Of a stretch of DNA of 42,384 nt, positions 12,035 to 18,750 are shown in pieces. Under the pieces are notes generated by a model. The model made no database searches, had not been told where the DNA came from, and saw nothing but the letters and a program-made list of their open reading frames with translations. The DNA comes from Phycisphaeraceae bacterium (GTDB lineage: Bacteria > Planctomycetota > Phycisphaerae > Phycisphaerales > Phycisphaeraceae): positions 1-42,384 of the forward strand of contig JADLFV010000116.1 in NCBI GenBank assembly GCA_020849625.1. The letters run 5' to 3'. Position numbers and translations under genes: made by a program. Each line of letters begins with the position of its first letter. Within the stretch, counting starts at the first letter, position 1.

Positions 12035-12105
12035 CCCTCCGCTGGAGGGCACCGGTGATACAATAACCCACCGTGGGTGAGGCGCAGCGGGCTGGAGCCG
12101 GTTCG

Positions 12106-13050
12106 ATGATACAGCAACTGCAACCCGCCACCTGGATGCAAGAGGCCTTGTTCGTCGATCTGCTGCTGGCGTTCGCGGCGGCGCTCGGCGTGCTGCTGTG
12201 CCTGCGCGCCCTGTATGTGCTGGGAAGGCAAGACCGAGGGCGGAAGGCAGAGGGCAGAGAGCGGAGGGCGGAGAGCGGAGAGCAGAATGTGTCCGCCTTC
12301 CGCCTTCCGCCTTCCGCTCTCCGCTCTCGCTCCAACCAGGGCATGGCGACGATCGAGTTCGCCCTGGTGATGCCGGTGGTGCTGTTTCTGATGCTGGTGC
12401 TGATCCAGACCATGCTGCTGATGGCGGGGCAGTTGTTCGTTCACTACGCCGCCTACGCCGCGACGCGGGCCGCCATCGTGCAGATTCCCCTCGACCTGTC
12501 GCAGCGGGGCGAGCCGATCAACGTGATCTCCATCGGCTCGAGCAGCGGCAAGTTCGGCGCCATCGAGCGAGCGGCTGTCCTGGCGGTGATGCCGGTGTGC
12601 GGGCGGGATGACGCTTCCGGGGGCTCGCAGGTGGATGGCGAGGAGTTCGCATCGGCGTTGCGGCAGCACTACGAAATGCTGGGTGAGACGACGCCGCGCT
12701 GGGTGGACACCCTGGCGGCCGAGCGCTACTGCTATGCGGCTGAGCACACGCGGATCGATCTGATTGAATTGATCACCGATGCCGACGGCAGCAGCGTGCA
12801 GATGCGCACGCTCACCGGCGGCACACACAGCTTCGGCATGAAAGACCCGGTGGCGGTGCGCGTGGAGCATCGCTTCAACCTGTCGGTGCCCTACGTACGG
12901 GCGATCTTCGCTGACGCCAAGATGCCGACCAAGCACGGCGAAACCGCCTACACGAACATCACCGCCCTGCAGATGCTGACGCTGGAAGGCGTCGATCCCG
13001 CGATGCCGATGGAGCCGACACTGCCGCGGCGCGATCAGAGGATTCGTTAA
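12106..13050 (+). CDS. TadE-like pseudopilin-family membrane protein, repeat-interrupted
   Basis: From ATG 12106 (GGAG nine bases upstream; a GTG at 12073 is less likely) the product has 314 residues. An N-terminal membrane helix (about 14-38) is followed by an Arg/Glu-rich segment (41-78) encoded entirely by a fold-back repeat, and then the TadE signature MATIEFALVMPVVLFLML with a second hydrophobic helix (80-107). The rest is soluble and not recognised. TadE/TadG proteins are pilin-like components handled by Tad/Flp secretion systems. It is first in a plus-strand cluster with a degenerate kinase, a TadG-like protein and a second TadE-like protein. Its stop overlaps the kinase start (TAATG). 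The first helix may have been a separate small gene before the repeat joined them. Confidence 0.75.
   Translation: MIQQLQPATWMQEALFVDLLLAFAAALGVLLCLRALYVLGRQDRGRKAEGRERRAESGEQNVSAFRLPPSALRSRSNQGMATIEFALVMPVVLFLMLVLIQTMLLMAGQLFVHYAAYAATRAAIVQIPLDLSQRGEPINVISIGSSSGKFGAIERAAVLAVMPVCGRDDASGGSQVDGEEFASALRQHYEMLGETTPRWVDTLAAERYCYAAEHTRIDLIELITDADGSSVQMRTLTGGTHSFGMKDPVAVRVEHRFNLSVPYVRAIFADAKMPTKHGETAYTNITALQMLTLEGVDPAMPMEPTLPRRDQRIR
12234..12331. repeat. Purine-strand fold-back repeat inside the TadE-like gene
   Basis: The left part (12234-12284) is almost pure purine in GGCGGAG / GGCAGAG units; the right part (12292-12331) is the matching pyrimidine strand, CCGCCTT / CCGCTCT. The spacer is about seven bases. 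The whole is open in the TadE-like frame and encodes a highly charged stretch. Confidence 0.9.
12613..12625 (+). repeat. G-rich dispersed motif inside the TadE-like gene
   Basis: GCTTCCGGGGGCT encodes Ala-Ser-Gly-Gly in a predicted loop (DDASGGSQVDG). The core CTTCCGGGGGC is exact. Confidence 0.6.
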
Positions 13051-15572
13051 TGCCCCAAGCCATGACCGGACAACCCGCGCACGTCGGCGAGAAGATCGGC
13101 AGCTACGAACTGCTGTCGCGCCTCGATGAAAGCGCCTCGATCGTCACCTTCCAGGGGCGCGATCCGCTGCTGGATCGCCGCGTGATCGTGCGCCAGGTGC
13201 TGGCGGCCGCGGGCGAAGAAGGCCAGGCTTTCATGGCCCGTTGCCGGCAGCGCATCGAGAAGTTCCGCCAATTGACCAGCCGGCAGCGGCGCGTGGCGGA
13301 CCTGATCGAAGTGATCGAGGATCCGCGCGGCTTGTTTGTCGTGCTCGAGCAGGTGGAAGGCAAAACGCTCCAGGATCAGCTTGCTGACGGCAAACCGATC
13401 GCAGCCCTGAGCGTGTTGCGCGTGCTGCGATCGGCGGCCATGGCCCTGGAGCCGCTGCACGCGGCGGGGCTGCCCCACCTGGATCTGCGACCAGCCAACA
13501 TGACCATCAGCAGCAGCGGGGCGGTGCGCCTGACCGACTTCGGCCTGGCCGCCGAGCGCGAGATGATGAAGCCGGCCGCGGTGCGCTACATGTCCCCGGA
13601 GCTTTGCCGCGGTGAAGAGGGCCATGCCGGCAGCGATCTGTATTCCCTGGGCATGATCGCCTACGAAATGCTGCTGGGTCGAGCGGAGTTCGAGCAGGAG
13701 TTTTCCTCCGTGCTGCGCGATCCGCGCCATGAGGCCCTGCGCTGGGTCAAGTGGCACACCAACCTGCGCAGCAGCGCGGCGCCCGCCCACGAGTTGAATC
13801 CGCGCATTGCGCCGCTGCTGGGTCAACTGGTGGCCCGCATGATGGAAAAAGACCCCGCCAAGCGTCTCAACTCCACCCGGCAGTTGATCGATGCCATCGA
13901 GCGCCATTTCTCGCGCGAGCAGCCGACTCGCCCGCAGGCTGCATCTGAAAAGCAGCCCGCCCCAACCGCGCACACTACTTCCGGGGGCGGGGGTGGGGGC
14001 GGAGACACTGCCAAGTTGCCGCAGCGCAAGCGGTTTGTTTGGCCAATGATCCTGCTTGCTGCGATCGTCGTGCTGTGCGCATCGGCCGGCGGCCTGTACC
14101 TGCATTTCATGAAGCAGCAGGCCGACGTTTCCGCACACCTTGAGAATGCAAGGAGCAGACTCGATGAAGCGGAGCGGCTGCACCTGTCGGGCGAGTTCGA
14201 TCAGGCCCTTGTGCTTTACGAGCAGGTGGCAGCGGAGTACCCGCCGGAGCAGCGCCTGGGCGAAGTGGCCCGGGCCGGGGCGATGCTGTGCCAGGTGCGC
14301 TTGAAGACCGATGAGGGAGCATACGACGACGCGGCCGCGCTGTTGGATCAGGTGGCGGGGATGGGCGTCTTCCGCGGCGACACCATCCGCGATCTGCGGC
14401 AGGAGATCGAACATCGCCGTGATGTGCAGCAGAACTTTCAGCAGATCCGCAGCAGTCTCAGCGAAGCCCGGCTCGATGCCGCGGACATGCAGATTCGCCG
14501 CATGCGCAGCGTCCTGCTTTCGGACGCCCAGCGCCAGACACTGGACGAACTGGGCGCCGAGTTGGCCGGCCTGCGCGCGCAACAGCAGGTGGATCAGACG
14601 CTGACCATGGTCGATCAGATGCTCAGCACCGGCCGGCGTGACGAAGCGATCACCCTGATACAGTCTGCCTCCAACCGGTACGAGCCGCGCTTGCAGCAGC
14701 GTCTGGACGAGTTGGAGAGGCAGCGCCGGCTCGATGCCGTGCTGGCCAAAGCCGAGCAGGCGGAGTCAGCCGGGGAATGGTCGGCCGCGATCGCTGCCTA
14801 TCATGAAGCGTTGAACATCAGTGACGCACAACCGCTGGTCGAACGCTTGTCCCAGGCGCGGATGAATGCCGCCCTGGCGGATGGTCGGCGATTGTACGAG
14901 CAGGGCGACACAGCCGGGGCAGCATCATCGTTCCGCCAGGCCCAGGCCTTCGGCGACAGCGATGAGGCGCGCGGTTACCTGTCACGATTGAAGTCCGCTG
15001 ATGATCGCCGGGTCTTTGAGAAGGCGGGTGATGAGTTGTTCGCCCAGTCGGAGTTCGCCGCCGCGGCGCGGCAATATGCCGAAGCCCTGGCCCTGACGCC
15101 GGATGGTGACGGTACGCTGTCGGCCAAGCACAACGATGCCAGGGTGCGGGCCCTGATGGCTGAGGGTCATCGCTGGATGCGGCAGGGTGATTTCGACCAG
15201 GCCCGCACCGCTTTCCAGCAGGCATGGAATGTCGATGCCGGCTCCGCGGCCTCCGAAGCGCTGACGGAACTGGACAAGCGCTCCAAACAAGCCCAGCTTC
15301 TGGCCGAGGGCGACAAGCTGCGGGCCGCTGCCAAGTTCGGCCCCGCCAAGCTGGTCTATCTCAAAGCCCGCGATGTGCTGGATGATCCCGAGGTCCGCCA
15401 GCGCCTCGATGACGTGGAGTACGAACACCTGTTGGCCCAGGCCCGCAGCTACCTCGACGCCCTGCGCCCCGAGGCGGCCGTGGCCTTGCTGCAAAGCGCC
15501 CAGAAGATCCACGACACACCGCAGGTGCAGCAGTTGCTGCTCGAAGCGCGGAAGGGGGCGGGAAATGAATAG
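13050..15572 (+). CDS. Membrane-anchored degenerate protein kinase with TPR-like repeats
   Basis: An 840-residue protein. Residues 18-290 have the Hanks kinase fold, but key positions differ: the glycine loop is LDESASIVTFQG with no glycine pattern, the ATP lysine is replaced (VIVRQ, Arg48), and HRD reads HLD (143-145). Asp145, Asn150 and DFG (163-165) remain, as does the SPE motif. I therefore call it a probable pseudokinase, though weak activity cannot be excluded. A Gly-rich linker (311-317) carries a copy of the G-rich motif. One membrane helix (329-354) is followed by about 480 residues of helical repeats resembling TPRs, which would lie outside the cytoplasm. It overlaps the TadE-like gene before it and the TadG-like gene after it, so it belongs to that operon and may sense or scaffold the secretion apparatus. 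Confidence 0.85.
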   Translation: MPQAMTGQPAHVGEKIGSYELLSRLDESASIVTFQGRDPLLDRRVIVRQVLAAAGEEGQAFMARCRQRIEKFRQLTSRQRRVADLIEVIEDPRGLFVVLEQVEGKTLQDQLADGKPIAALSVLRVLRSAAMALEPLHAAGLPHLDLRPANMTISSSGAVRLTDFGLAAEREMMKPAAVRYMSPELCRGEEGHAGSDLYSLGMIAYEMLLGRAEFEQEFSSVLRDPRHEALRWVKWHTNLRSSAAPAHELNPRIAPLLGQLVARMMEKDPAKRLNSTRQLIDAIERHFSREQPTRPQAASEKQPAPTAHTTSGGGGGGGDTAKLPQRKRFVWPMILLAAIVVLCASAGGLYLHFMKQQADVSAHLENARSRLDEAERLHLSGEFDQALVLYEQVAAEYPPEQRLGEVARAGAMLCQVRLKTDEGAYDDAAALLDQVAGMGVFRGDTIRDLRQEIEHRRDVQQNFQQIRSSLSEARLDAADMQIRRMRSVLLSDAQRQTLDELGAELAGLRAQQQVDQTLTMVDQMLSTGRRDEAITLIQSASNRYEPRLQQRLDELERQRRLDAVLAKAEQAESAGEWSAAIAAYHEALNISDAQPLVERLSQARMNAALADGRRLYEQGDTAGAASSFRQAQAFGDSDEARGYLSRLKSADDRRVFEKAGDELFAQSEFAAAARQYAEALALTPDGDGTLSAKHNDARVRALMAEGHRWMRQGDFDQARTAFQQAWNVDAGSAASEALTELDKRSKQAQLLAEGDKLRAAAKFGPAKLVYLKARDVLDDPEVRQRLDDVEYEHLLAQARSYLDALRPEAAVALLQSAQKIHDTPQVQQLLLEARKGAGNE
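13977..13990 (+). repeat. G-rich dispersed motif in the kinase linker
   Basis: ACTTCCGGGGGCGG, continued by further G-rich sequence, encodes the Thr-Ser-Gly7 run between the kinase domain and the membrane helix. Confidence 0.7.
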
Positions 15573-17586
15573 AGAAAGACAATGGCGGATGGCGGATGGC
15601 GGATGGCGGATGGTTCAGAAGCCGCGCCTGTGCGTTGATCCATCCGCTATCCGCTATCCGCCACCCGCCATATCGCGCCAGCGCGGTGCGGTGATGATCG
15701 TCGTGCTGCTGGCGTTGCTGCTGCTGGCGGCCCTGGTGTTCTATGTCTTCAACCTCGGTTGGGCGGCCCAGCAGCGGGTGGTGGCCCAGAATGCCGCCGA
15801 TGCCACAGCCTACAGCGGCGGCGGCTGGGTGGCGCGCTCCATGAACGAGGTGGCGCTGAACAACATCGCCATGGCCCGCCTGATCGCCCTGATCAACGTC
15901 ATGGACTCGGCCCCCATGGCCGTGGAGCACACGCTGATCGATCAGCGGGCACTCAAGCAGCAGATCGAAGATCAGTTCCGTCGCGGCGTGCCTGATTTCT
16001 GGATGCAGAGGGCCTTGACTGAAATACTCTCCGCCGTGCAGATGGAGGTCGCGGCTCTGGAGCCGGTCAACGCCCAACTCAACCAGAGCGGCTTCGACAT
16101 GCGCACGCTGACCTACTACGACGCACCGGGCGGCAAGGGCAAGTTCTGGACGGCCATGGAGTCGGTCGATGCCGCCAGTCAAGTGACGTTGAACAACCTG
16201 GGCGAAGCAGCCCAGATGGCCGCCATGGAAGCCGGGCGACACAACCTCAGCGAATCTAAGGACGGCGTGGCGCTGTTGCTGCCGGCCAACAATGGGCTGC
16301 CCTGGAAGCGTGGCAACTTCGATGACTTCCGCTCCGTGCTCGGGGCCCGCGGCTCCTACAGCGGCCTGCCCCCGCGGACGGTCGAAACCGCTCGCGATCC
16401 TGATTGGTTCAACTATCGCGGACCCTACGATGCTGTCTTCGGCTGGCGCTGGTTCGACAATCAGCAGCAGAGCTGGTTGCGCGGGGTCAGCCAGAATCCG
16501 GTGCCCATCGGCTCCGGCGGCGGCGGGCGATGGGAAACACGCCAGCCCGATCCGCAGTTCTATATCGTCTTCGGCCCACAGCGCTGGATGCTTGACAGCC
16601 TCGACAACCTTGAGACCGGCCTGCTGCGCTACAGCCGCTTTGCCCGCGACATGGACAACCTCGGTGATGACATCCACGTTACCTCAACGGTCTTCTGGAT
16701 GGACCAGTTGGCCCGCATCAAACTCAATTATCTCTGGCCCGGCGGCGGTATGGTCAATGTGACGCACCCGGAGTGGATTGACGATTTCGATGAAGCCCGC
16801 AGCATCGCCGCCGCCACTCGGGACAGGATCAAAGCCACGCGCTTCGTCGTGGTCGAGCTCAAGAGCATTTATCCAGCCAGCAGTTCCAAGTTCGGCAGCG
16901 ACGGCAGTTGGGCTTATGTCCGTGAGGGCCGCTGGGCCAGCCCGCGCATCTTTTACAGCCGTAGCTGGATGGATCCCACTTACTGGGGCGCTGACAAGAT
17001 CGCCGACCACATCTGGCGAACCAATTGGAGCTACCAGGACACCGACGACACCGAACTGGGCCTGCCGCTGCGCACCGACCCGGACGGCAAGGTGATCCCC
17101 TACACCATCTACCGCGTGGACGAGTACATGTTTGCCGGCATCGACGTGGGCCAAGACGTCGAGGTGGGCAACCCGCACAACTTCGCCAGCCGCAATGATC
17201 TGCCTGCCCCGATCGATTTCGATCACCAGCAGGTGCCGATGGATAACAGCAGCCGGGCGCAGTTCTTTACGTACCTCGGCGTGGTGCGGCAGGACGCCGG
17301 CGGCCGCCTGTGGCCAGGTCAGTTCGACGCGGACAAGACGCATCCGCGCGTGGCCCTGGCTCAGGTGCGGCTGTTCAACAATCACTCCTGGGACATGTGG
17401 ACGCCGATGTGGCACGCCCAGTTGGAGCCGGTGAGCGACTACGACACCTGGCTGGCCACCCTGGAGCGCGACGCATCCCTGCTGGCCACCGTGCCCGATC
17501 TGCCGATCGAGTTCGATATCGGAGAGTTACAAACATACCTGACCAGCCTGCTCCCGCTGGTGCAGGCGGATCTGATGGTGCATTGA
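15565..17586 (+). CDS. TadG-like membrane protein with repeat-derived N-terminus
   Basis: The 673-residue product starts at ATG 15565, overlapping the kinase stop; AAGGGGG lies upstream. Residues 1-40 are encoded by a fold-back repeat and have an odd Trp/Arg/Gly-rich sequence. The normal start of such a protein follows: RGAVMIVVLLALLLLAALVF (40-59), a membrane helix, then QNAADATAYSGGGWVARSMNEVALNN, the helical region found after the membrane segment in TadG-type (Flp pilus assembly) proteins. The remaining 500 residues are a large, aromatic-rich soluble part with no recognised domain. I infer an envelope-anchored structural role with the TadE-like neighbours. No ATPase (TadA) or inner-membrane TadB/C gene is in the window. 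Confidence 0.75.
   Translation: MNRERQWRMADGGWRMVQKPRLCVDPSAIRYPPPAISRQRGAVMIVVLLALLLLAALVFYVFNLGWAAQQRVVAQNAADATAYSGGGWVARSMNEVALNNIAMARLIALINVMDSAPMAVEHTLIDQRALKQQIEDQFRRGVPDFWMQRALTEILSAVQMEVAALEPVNAQLNQSGFDMRTLTYYDAPGGKGKFWTAMESVDAASQVTLNNLGEAAQMAAMEAGRHNLSESKDGVALLLPANNGLPWKRGNFDDFRSVLGARGSYSGLPPRTVETARDPDWFNYRGPYDAVFGWRWFDNQQQSWLRGVSQNPVPIGSGGGGRWETRQPDPQFYIVFGPQRWMLDSLDNLETGLLRYSRFARDMDNLGDDIHVTSTVFWMDQLARIKLNYLWPGGGMVNVTHPEWIDDFDEARSIAAATRDRIKATRFVVVELKSIYPASSSKFGSDGSWAYVREGRWASPRIFYSRSWMDPTYWGADKIADHIWRTNWSYQDTDDTELGLPLRTDPDGKVIPYTIYRVDEYMFAGIDVGQDVEVGNPHNFASRNDLPAPIDFDHQQVPMDNSSRAQFFTYLGVVRQDAGGRLWPGQFDADKTHPRVALAQVRLFNNHSWDMWTPMWHAQLEPVSDYDTWLATLERDASLLATVPDLPIEFDIGELQTYLTSLLPLVQADLMVH
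15582..15671. repeat. Fold-back repeat built on GGCGGAT
   Basis: ATGGCGGATGGCGGATGG-type repeats (15582-15614) are answered after 25 bases by CCATCCGCTATCCGC... ending CCGCCAT (15640-15671). The element lies within the first 36 codons of the TadG-like gene and is read in frame. Confidence 0.92.
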
Positions 17587-17609
17587 GCCCCTCTCCTCGT
17601 TGGAGAGGT
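17587..17609. repeat. Small CCTCTCC hairpin after the TadG-like gene
   Basis: CCTCTCC, five bases, GGAGAGG forms a stem directly after the stop of the TadG-like gene and just outside the framed DUF559 unit. It is related in sequence to the larger repeat that starts at 17621. Confidence 0.6.
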
Positions 17610-17620
17610 CATAATTCCGG

Positions 17621-18052
17621 TCCCCTCTCCCCCTGGGAGAGGGTTAGGGTGAGGGCCGAATCATCATGACCCACCGCACTGAGTCTTACAACTCGCCCCA
17701 CATGACGCATCGTGCCCGCACTCTGCGCCAAAACGCTCCAACTCCTGAGCGGATCCTGTGGGGGCTGCTGCGTGCCCGACGTCTCGGCGGATTGAAATTC
17801 CGGCGGCAAGTTCCGATCGGTCCCTACGTGGCTGACTACGTCTGTGAGGATACCAGGCTCGTGGTGGAGTTGGATGGAATGACCCACGATGGCCGTGGCG
17901 CGGAGGATGCGCACCGCACGTCCTACCTTCAGCAACAAGGCCTGCGTGTGTTGCGCGTGACCAATGATGATCTGTTGACATATCCTGATGCTGTGGCGGC
18001 GCTGATTTTGAAGTCGGCCCTCACCCCGGCCCTCTCCCAGGGGGAGAGGGGG
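17621..18052. mobile_element. Candidate mobile unit: DUF559 gene framed by 38-bp inverted repeats
   Basis: The left end (17621-17658) begins TCCCCTCTCCCCCTGGGAGA and ends GGTGAGGGCCGA. The right end (18014-18052) is its reverse complement with about three mismatches (TTA against CCG). Each end also holds an internal palindrome, CCCTCTCCC...GGGAGAGGG. Between the ends is essentially one gene, a DUF559 endonuclease, whose start and C-terminus touch or use the repeats. The unit sits between two tad-like genes. I infer a self-contained insertion of about 430 bp. No target-site duplication is obvious, and mobility is not shown. Confidence 0.65.
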
Positions 18053-18073
18053 AAGGAGGAGTGTGGAACATGA
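17666..18073 (+). CDS. DUF559-family endonuclease-like protein
   Basis: A 135-residue protein of the DUF559 family, related to Vsr/very-short-patch type PD-(D/E)XK nucleases. The core is visible: ERILWGLLRARRLGGLKFRRQ, PIGPYVADYVC (the Asp of the nuclease motif), LVVELDGMTHD (Glu-x-Asp) and LRVLRVTNDDLL. Family members usually begin near MTHRARTLRQN, so ATG 17702 is a likely true start; ATG 17666 would use the GAGGG of the repeat as ribosome site. The last residues (ALTPALSQGERG) are encoded by the right repeat and are not part of the fold. The stop overlaps the start of the second TadE-like gene (ATGA). The natural target and role of DUF559 proteins are unknown to me. Confidence 0.85.
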   Translation: MTHRTESYNSPHMTHRARTLRQNAPTPERILWGLLRARRLGGLKFRRQVPIGPYVADYVCEDTRLVVELDGMTHDGRGAEDAHRTSYLQQQGLRVLRVTNDDLLTYPDAVAALILKSALTPALSQGERGKEECGT

Positions 18074-18750
18074 ACTGTTCACGATGCAACTTCGGCTCCG
18101 CCATGACTGAGACGGTGCTGTCGCTGCCGCTGATATTGTTGATCCTGGCCCTGCTGATTTTCTTCGGGCAGAACATGCAGCGCTTGCAGCGGGTGGCGGT
18201 GGTGGATCGCTACGAGGCGTGGCGGCAGATCGTCGATGCCCCGGGGCCGAAAACGGATAACGCGCTGAATACGGTCTTCTTCGGCGGCAACGCGCCGAGC
18301 CTGAAAGTGTACCCCACGGTGGGGTATTTCACTGATACCCAGGATTTTCTGGTCAGCGAAGCGCAACTGACCAGCGACCAGGCTTCCGCCTGGATGGCCA
18401 CCATGTTCGATGAACTGCCCGGCTCCATCAGCATGCAGGCCAAAGCAACCTTCGAACAACCGGTCAAAGCCCTCAGCAAATTCACCGGCCCGATCATTCA
18501 TCATCACACGGTGCTGGATGGCGATTGGCGTTACGCGCCCTGGGCGGAGTGGCGGCAGGAGGTGGATAGGACGTTGCCCGTGGTCGATTTCTGGCCGGCC
18601 CTGCGCGATGAGTTCATCATGACGCTGGAAGATCGGCTGGAACCGCTGGCGTCCTCGGGCAACGATCTGGCTACAACATTGCGTCGCTGCTATCTGAACC
18701 CGGTCGCCTATCGCGGGCCGGGCGATGAGAATTACTGGCCGCAAAAATGA
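18070..18750 (+). CDS. TadE-like membrane protein
   Basis: 226 residues from ATG 18070, nine bases after GGAGGA; the upstream GTG at 18061 has no room for a ribosome site. SAMTETVLSLPLILLILALLIFFGQN is a TadE-type segment with the conserved Thr-Glu before the hydrophobic helix. The soluble part is unknown. It is the last gene of the tad-like cluster. Its ATG overlaps the DUF559 stop, and its ribosome site lies at the edge of the right repeat, so if the DUF559 unit is inserted it now supplies the translation signal or coupling for this gene. Confidence 0.7.
   Translation: MNCSRCNFGSAMTETVLSLPLILLILALLIFFGQNMQRLQRVAVVDRYEAWRQIVDAPGPKTDNALNTVFFGGNAPSLKVYPTVGYFTDTQDFLVSEAQLTSDQASAWMATMFDELPGSISMQAKATFEQPVKALSKFTGPIIHHHTVLDGDWRYAPWAEWRQEVDRTLPVVDFWPALRDEFIMTLEDRLEPLASSGNDLATTLRRCYLNPVAYRGPGDENYWPQK

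Follow-up and report, generated by a model that had tools for sequence, protein, structure and literature searches.

A DUF559 nuclease gene framed by inverted BoxC-type triplex motifs: a candidate minimal mobile repeat–nuclease unit

DUF559 proteins are widespread, and to our knowledge no role has been agreed on for the family. The 42,384-nt stretch of Phycisphaeraceae DNA analysed here (the window) raises the question of what such a protein does when its gene sits between two near-identical inverted repeats. The arms of this unit lie at 17622–17659 (plus strand) and 18014–18051 (minus strand); they are 38 nt long, 92% complementary with three differences, and separated by 354 nt, which bears out the preliminary description of 38-bp ends differing at about three places. 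The pattern GGGAGAGGGNNNGGGTGAGGG, searched with up to three mismatches, gave two matches in the window, both of them the arms, against 0.05 expected from shuffling. Between the arms we found, as had been described, a DUF559 gene (17666–18073, plus strand, 135 aa; PF04480, E = 1e-35, 122.3 bits against a Pfam gathering score of 20.6), and in the profile search DUF559 was the sole domain of the unit, with no known transposase domain. The left neighbor is a TadG-like gene (15373–17586, plus strand; PF13400) and the right neighbor a weakly TadE-like one (18061–18750, plus strand; PF07811 at 20.3 bits, under the 22.9 cut-off), in keeping with the tad-like cluster of the preliminary description. 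The right arm encodes the tail of the DUF559 reading frame (ALTPALSQGERG) and thus supplies the C-terminal residues of the protein, as proposed; the arms fit the extent first assigned to the unit, while the reading frame slightly overshoots its end at 18052, reaching 18073. The AAGGAGGA of the TadE-like gene, which starts at GTG 18061 or ATG 18070, lies just beyond the right repeat. Directly 3′ of the TadG-like stop lies a bare palindrome, CCCCTCTCCTCGTTGGAGAGG (17588–17608, plus strand), which has no third block and probably derives from a motif by decay or collapse. Two further hairpins in the window are of another kind. An imperfect hairpin with heptamer-like units (GGCGGAAGGCAGAGGGCAGAG...) at 12236–12328, in the N-terminal part of a TadE-like reading frame (12073–13050), looks like another dispersed repeat family, and GCGGATGGCGGATGGCGG with its near reverse complement (15585–15668) forms a second heptamer-type hairpin within the TadG-like reading frame.

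BoxC, PIT or TM repeats have been known in Escherichia coli since the 1990s and are present in more than 260 genomes. Each arm in the window is built from three blocks (CCCTCTCCC, a loop, GGGAGAGGG, 3 nt, and GGGTGAGGG); the palindrome noted earlier in each arm is therefore real but not a simple one, since the third, purine block GGGTGAGGG adjoins it. Both arms satisfy the published consensus CCCTCNCCC-loop-GGGNGAGGG-3 nt-GGGNGAGGG (PMC4666352), and judged by their sequence they are the E. coli BoxC/PIT element, the intrastrand-triplex motif TM_ECO. The left arm is of type A (loop TTA; stem 17623–17631/17635–17643, third block 17647–17655, inward-pointing) and the right arm of type B (loop CCG; third block 18018–18026, stem 18030–18038/18042–18050) in the naming of Holder et al. 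(2015, PMC4666352). The two are inverted with respect to each other, which is the A + B arrangement of E. coli, where all five inverted pairs of K-12 combine A with B (PMC4666352). Holder et al. found that E. coli oligonucleotides form very stable triplexes in vitro and that the motif marks variable loci; their paper describes no mobility gene beside the motifs, does not mention DUF559, and leaves the origin of the motif open (PMC4666352). Here, in contrast, the motif borders a nuclease gene, and does so in many phyla.

To relate the enzyme to characterized nucleases, we modeled its structure (mean pLDDT 82.8). The closest solved folds found by Foldseek include the Neisseria protein NGO0050 (3hrl, 9e-7), the EDxHD homing endonuclease I-Bth0305I and Vsr, with matches to 3r3p at 6.5e-5 and 1cw0 at 7e-3. 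The predicted catalytic residues are E16, D45, D58, H62, and D69 (numbering starts with the Met encoded at 17702; counting from the first Met adds 12), and these five together with E56 are invariant in 74/74 homologues. The E, D, D, and H residues are spaced as in the site that has been proposed for VsrA of Caulobacter, which is a DUF559 protein assigned to mismatch repair (PMC12907096). The fold and the E-D-x-H-D residues are shared with YcjD, NGO0050 (3hrl), VsrA, and I-Bth0305I, and the window protein is predicted to be an active Vsr/EDxHD-type PD-(D/E)XK nuclease. For the DUF559, Vsr, and EDxHD homing enzymes, the papers that we found report no partner repeat. We also considered and set aside a role in defence, for which PADLOC gave no match to the window protein, and carriage as phage or ordinary plasmid cargo, for which there was no phage match and 32 plasmid records, mostly of large replicons.

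The source genome (G000) contains a single DUF559 gene and, in pattern searches, from which all copy counts here derive, 53 matches to the arm pattern, 47 of them exact, or about 50 dispersed copies. With no mismatches allowed, the reversed pattern gave zero to one match; with two mismatches this control is uninformative, as the reversed arm pattern is itself within two mismatches of the real one. Alignment of 32 copies delimited a conserved block that runs from about −14 to +25 and so matches the 38-nt arm in extent. Among 30 copies checked, 20 were inverted doublets, with a gap of 45–50 nt in 18 and 20 nt in two, oriented like the arms that enclose DUF559, and 10 seemed single. From these counts and gap sizes we conclude that the dispersed copies are mostly REPIN-like doublets of fixed geometry.

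The association of motif and gene extends well beyond this genome. A triplex-type motif, as detected with a purine-triplex definition devised for this analysis, lay within 400 bp of DUF559 in 71/80 stand-alone loci from many phyla, and motif density was 2.76/kb near DUF559 compared to 0.094/kb elsewhere in the same 80 loci, which also served as the density control (29-fold enrichment). The best flanking inverted repeat reached a score of at least 14 in 49/72 loci and in 3/393 shifted control intervals. Where enough flank was present, 40/66 loci carried a plus motif upstream and a minus motif downstream, pointing inward, with a median span of 424 bp, and the end of the DUF559 reading frame overlapped the downstream motif in 50/72. 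A second sample, from Sphingomonadaceae, gave the same picture: DUF559 occurred in 89/100 genomes, with up to 11 paralogues per genome, and the motif was found at 19 of 28 DUF559 loci, on both sides in 15 (1.70/kb vs 0.00/kb), leaving about one-third of these 28 loci with no detectable motif. Across 149 genomes of the window's own phylum, stand-alone DUF559 was present in 10/15 genomes with at least four V1 copies and in 13/134 others (p = 2e-6). Many genomes are drafts; four held many copies and no stand-alone DUF559 that we could find (G145 with 145, G004 with 36, G081 with 33, and G061 with 16), which may reflect loss or draft gaps. Large multi-domain DUF559-like proteins had no flanking repeats (loci L054–L060, L160, and L165) and serve as an internal negative. 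The possibility that the repeats occur everywhere with no link to DUF559 genes was thus checked, and we instead found tight linkage across phyla; we regard the association of DUF559 and the motif as close to certain.

Several individual loci depart from the usual form. At L047 and L132 the inverted repeats beside the DUF559 gene measure about 150 nt and 98 nt, respectively, far longer than the usual arms, and the DUF559 reading frames of L091 and L167 contain an internal stop and are apparently decayed copies. At L236 (Neisseria gonorrhoeae) triplex-like motifs recur every 281 bp downstream of a DUF559 gene that is probably NGO0050 (PDB 3hrl). At L234 (Sinorhizobium meliloti pSymB) three BoxC-like motifs frame the DUF559 gene, and similar motifs occur in many rhizobial replicons; the rhizobial RIME elements may be related to them.

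Motif and nuclease are also matched lineage by lineage. Stem sequence varies between lineages, and the third block co-varies with it: in a set of palindromes gathered near DUF559 without requiring a third block, 106/127 had a third block that agreed with their own stem, read in mirror order, at 8/9 positions or better, and the mean match was 8.28, compared to 7.38 when stems were permuted among loci (maximum 7.58 in 2000 permutations). For four motif variants counted in 36–39 genomes, the variant-by-genome matrix was largely diagonal, each variant being frequent mainly in genomes where it flanks a DUF559 gene and near zero elsewhere (for variant V3 the reversed control is uninformative because its pattern is identical backwards). 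Dispersed copies, then, mostly match the motif beside the DUF559 gene of the same genome. Off-diagonal genomes predicted additional DUF559 genes. G161, G167, and G168 proved to have such genes beside the expected motif, G168 with six DUF559 genes and several motif types; in G185 and G187 the predicted genes were not found. Protein identity and stem identity showed a weak but significant correlation (Mantel r = 0.184, p = 2e-4).

Sites that lack the unit were also found. In relatives of the source organism the TadG-like gene directly adjoins the TadE-like gene, and neither DUF559 nor a repeat is present, which goes against the refuting case named in the preliminary description, DUF559 at this place in all relatives without repeats; this is a gene-order argument, as the proteins are only about 30–40% identical. 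In sphingomonads the YqeY–dnaG interval measures 431–714 bp and contains DUF559 and end motifs in eight distinct loci (L131 and L257 being one locus within the set), and it is empty, at 14 bp, in L118. We found no clean empty site in Azospirillum or Sinorhizobium. The filled/empty pairs that could be compared are few and either diverged or collapsed, and they revealed no evident target-site duplication and no exact insertion target. Because the nuclease occupies the same YqeY–dnaG locus across sphingomonad genera, the gene itself moves rarely; by analogy with RAYTs, these same-locus orthologues suggest a gene that seldom moves while short copies spread. The paralogues, up to 11 per genome, suggest that the gene does move.

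The E. coli relative, ycjD, allows the same question to be asked within a species. Strain K-12 holds ycjD and 23 motifs; on the 3′ side of the gene (L061, 3205–3425) there are one intact and one degenerate BoxC motif, with none upstream, and TM no. 9 of Holder et al. (PMC4666352) lies about 170 bp from the ycjD end. The ycjD region was present in 3364/5426 E. coli genomes. Repeat places, counted by BLAST as a proxy for copy number, had a median of 17 across the 37 genomes sampled with ycjD and 3 across the 23 without it, a comparison that is confounded by phylogroup, and ycjD-negative O157 retains about 12. Two K-12 doublets are polymorphic, being absent or collapsed to a single hairpin in other strains. 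We rejected fabI–sapF as a clean empty site because ycjD-negative strains hold the eef operon there.

We consider it probable that the unit is a minimal mobile repeat–nuclease element of the REPIN/RAYT kind, operating with an unrelated Vsr/EDxHD-type PD-(D/E)XK nuclease. The preliminary description had proposed that the nuclease moves or copies the repeats as RAYTs do for theirs, and the analogy stands in that a genome has a single gene or a small number of paralogues, the inverted doublets are dispersed, and each paralogue has a matching motif; that the nuclease itself drives the movement is what we infer. On this model the nuclease would recognize the folded motif, as hairpin or triplex, probably when it is single-stranded during replication, and would nick at the motif border; the unit or a doublet might then be copied into new sites, with occasional collapse to a single hairpin. 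The dispersed single and doublet motifs would be short non-autonomous relatives of the unit, as REPINs are to RAYTs. The earlier suggestion of homing-endonuclease-like action fares less well. The match to the fold of I-Bth0305I supports it, as do the single gene that keeps its locus from one sphingomonad genus to another and the clean empty site in one genome, and a homing-type drive, in which the nuclease cuts unit-less alleles that are then filled by recombinational repair, would make the dispersed motifs leftovers or recognition sites. Such a drive, however, predicts insertion at one allelic site; it would lead one to expect neither some 50 copies scattered over unrelated sites in a fixed doublet geometry nor matched motif families for each paralogue. 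The scatter of the repeats makes pure homing less likely, and we judge homing-type drive to be unlikely overall.

We hold to be just as doubtful a role in host maintenance, with DUF559 as a caretaker that trims or resolves replication-stalling hairpins and triplexes while the motifs spread by other means. The in vitro stability of the triplexes and the finding that the motif marks variable loci (Holder et al. 2015, PMC4666352) would fit such a role, and so would the collapse of E. coli doublets to one hairpin, but it leaves unexplained why the gene lies between inverted motifs in most loci and why filled and empty sites differ by one unit. The doublet architecture, which is REPIN-like (PMC3116915), could also mean that the repeats belong to a RAYT (a Y1 HUH transposase), with DUF559 a passenger. 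In 15 repeat-bearing genomes used as a control, though, the motif was near only 2/30 Y1_Tnp loci, one of them owing to an adjoining DUF559 gene, and five genomes with motifs had no Y1_Tnp match (G161, G158, G175, G176, and G084); this control largely refutes a RAYT origin, which we consider very improbable. We give equally little credence to the view that DUF559 is a mismatch-repair enzyme of the Vsr kind, the role proposed for VsrA of Caulobacter, and that the repeats nearby have nothing to do with its function: the similarity to Vsr in fold and residues speaks for it (PMC12907096), but gene and motif lie together, and match lineage by lineage, far more often than chance would allow.

Compared to known systems, the repeat–nuclease element favored here resembles REPIN–RAYT (TnpA-REP) in its dispersed inverted palindrome doublets, mostly of fixed size, in a nuclease gene flanked by its own motif (PMC3116915), in a motif variant for each paralogue (G185 and G187 excepted), and in a gene that often stays at one locus. 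It differs in its enzyme, which is a Vsr/EDxHD-type PD-(D/E)XK protein and not a Y1 HUH transposase, in its three-block triplex motif, and in reaching 11 paralogues in one sphingomonad genome; because the enzyme is DUF559 and no Y1 HUH enzyme lies beside the repeat, we do not place the unit within REPIN–RAYT. Like MITEs and minimal insertion sequences, it has terminal inverted repeats around one gene and short, arms-only copies, but it lacks a known transposase domain, and we found no target-site duplication in the few pairs of sites compared. We found no paper linking DUF559 or YcjD with BoxC, PIT, or TM repeats in the open library; subscription papers and preprints lay outside this search, and an earlier description is possible.

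Together, these results point to DUF559 proteins as the partner that had been missing for the BoxC triplex repeats, long known but unexplained, and that spreads them; the link gives each a testable function. E. coli K-12, with both ycjD and the motifs, suits a laboratory test. We tentatively raise the possibility, without yet favoring it, that such units form a new class of transposable element in prokaryotes. Its one enzyme would be a Vsr/EDxHD-type PD-(D/E)XK nuclease acting on a folded triplex motif, and the BoxC/PIT repeats, with many lineage-specific relatives, would be non-autonomous copies of it across the bacteria. If the link between DUF559 and the repeats is confirmed, the nuclease superfamily known from restriction, repair, and homing would also drive the genome-wide spread of repeats, by a route separate from the HUH enzymes that serve REP elements.
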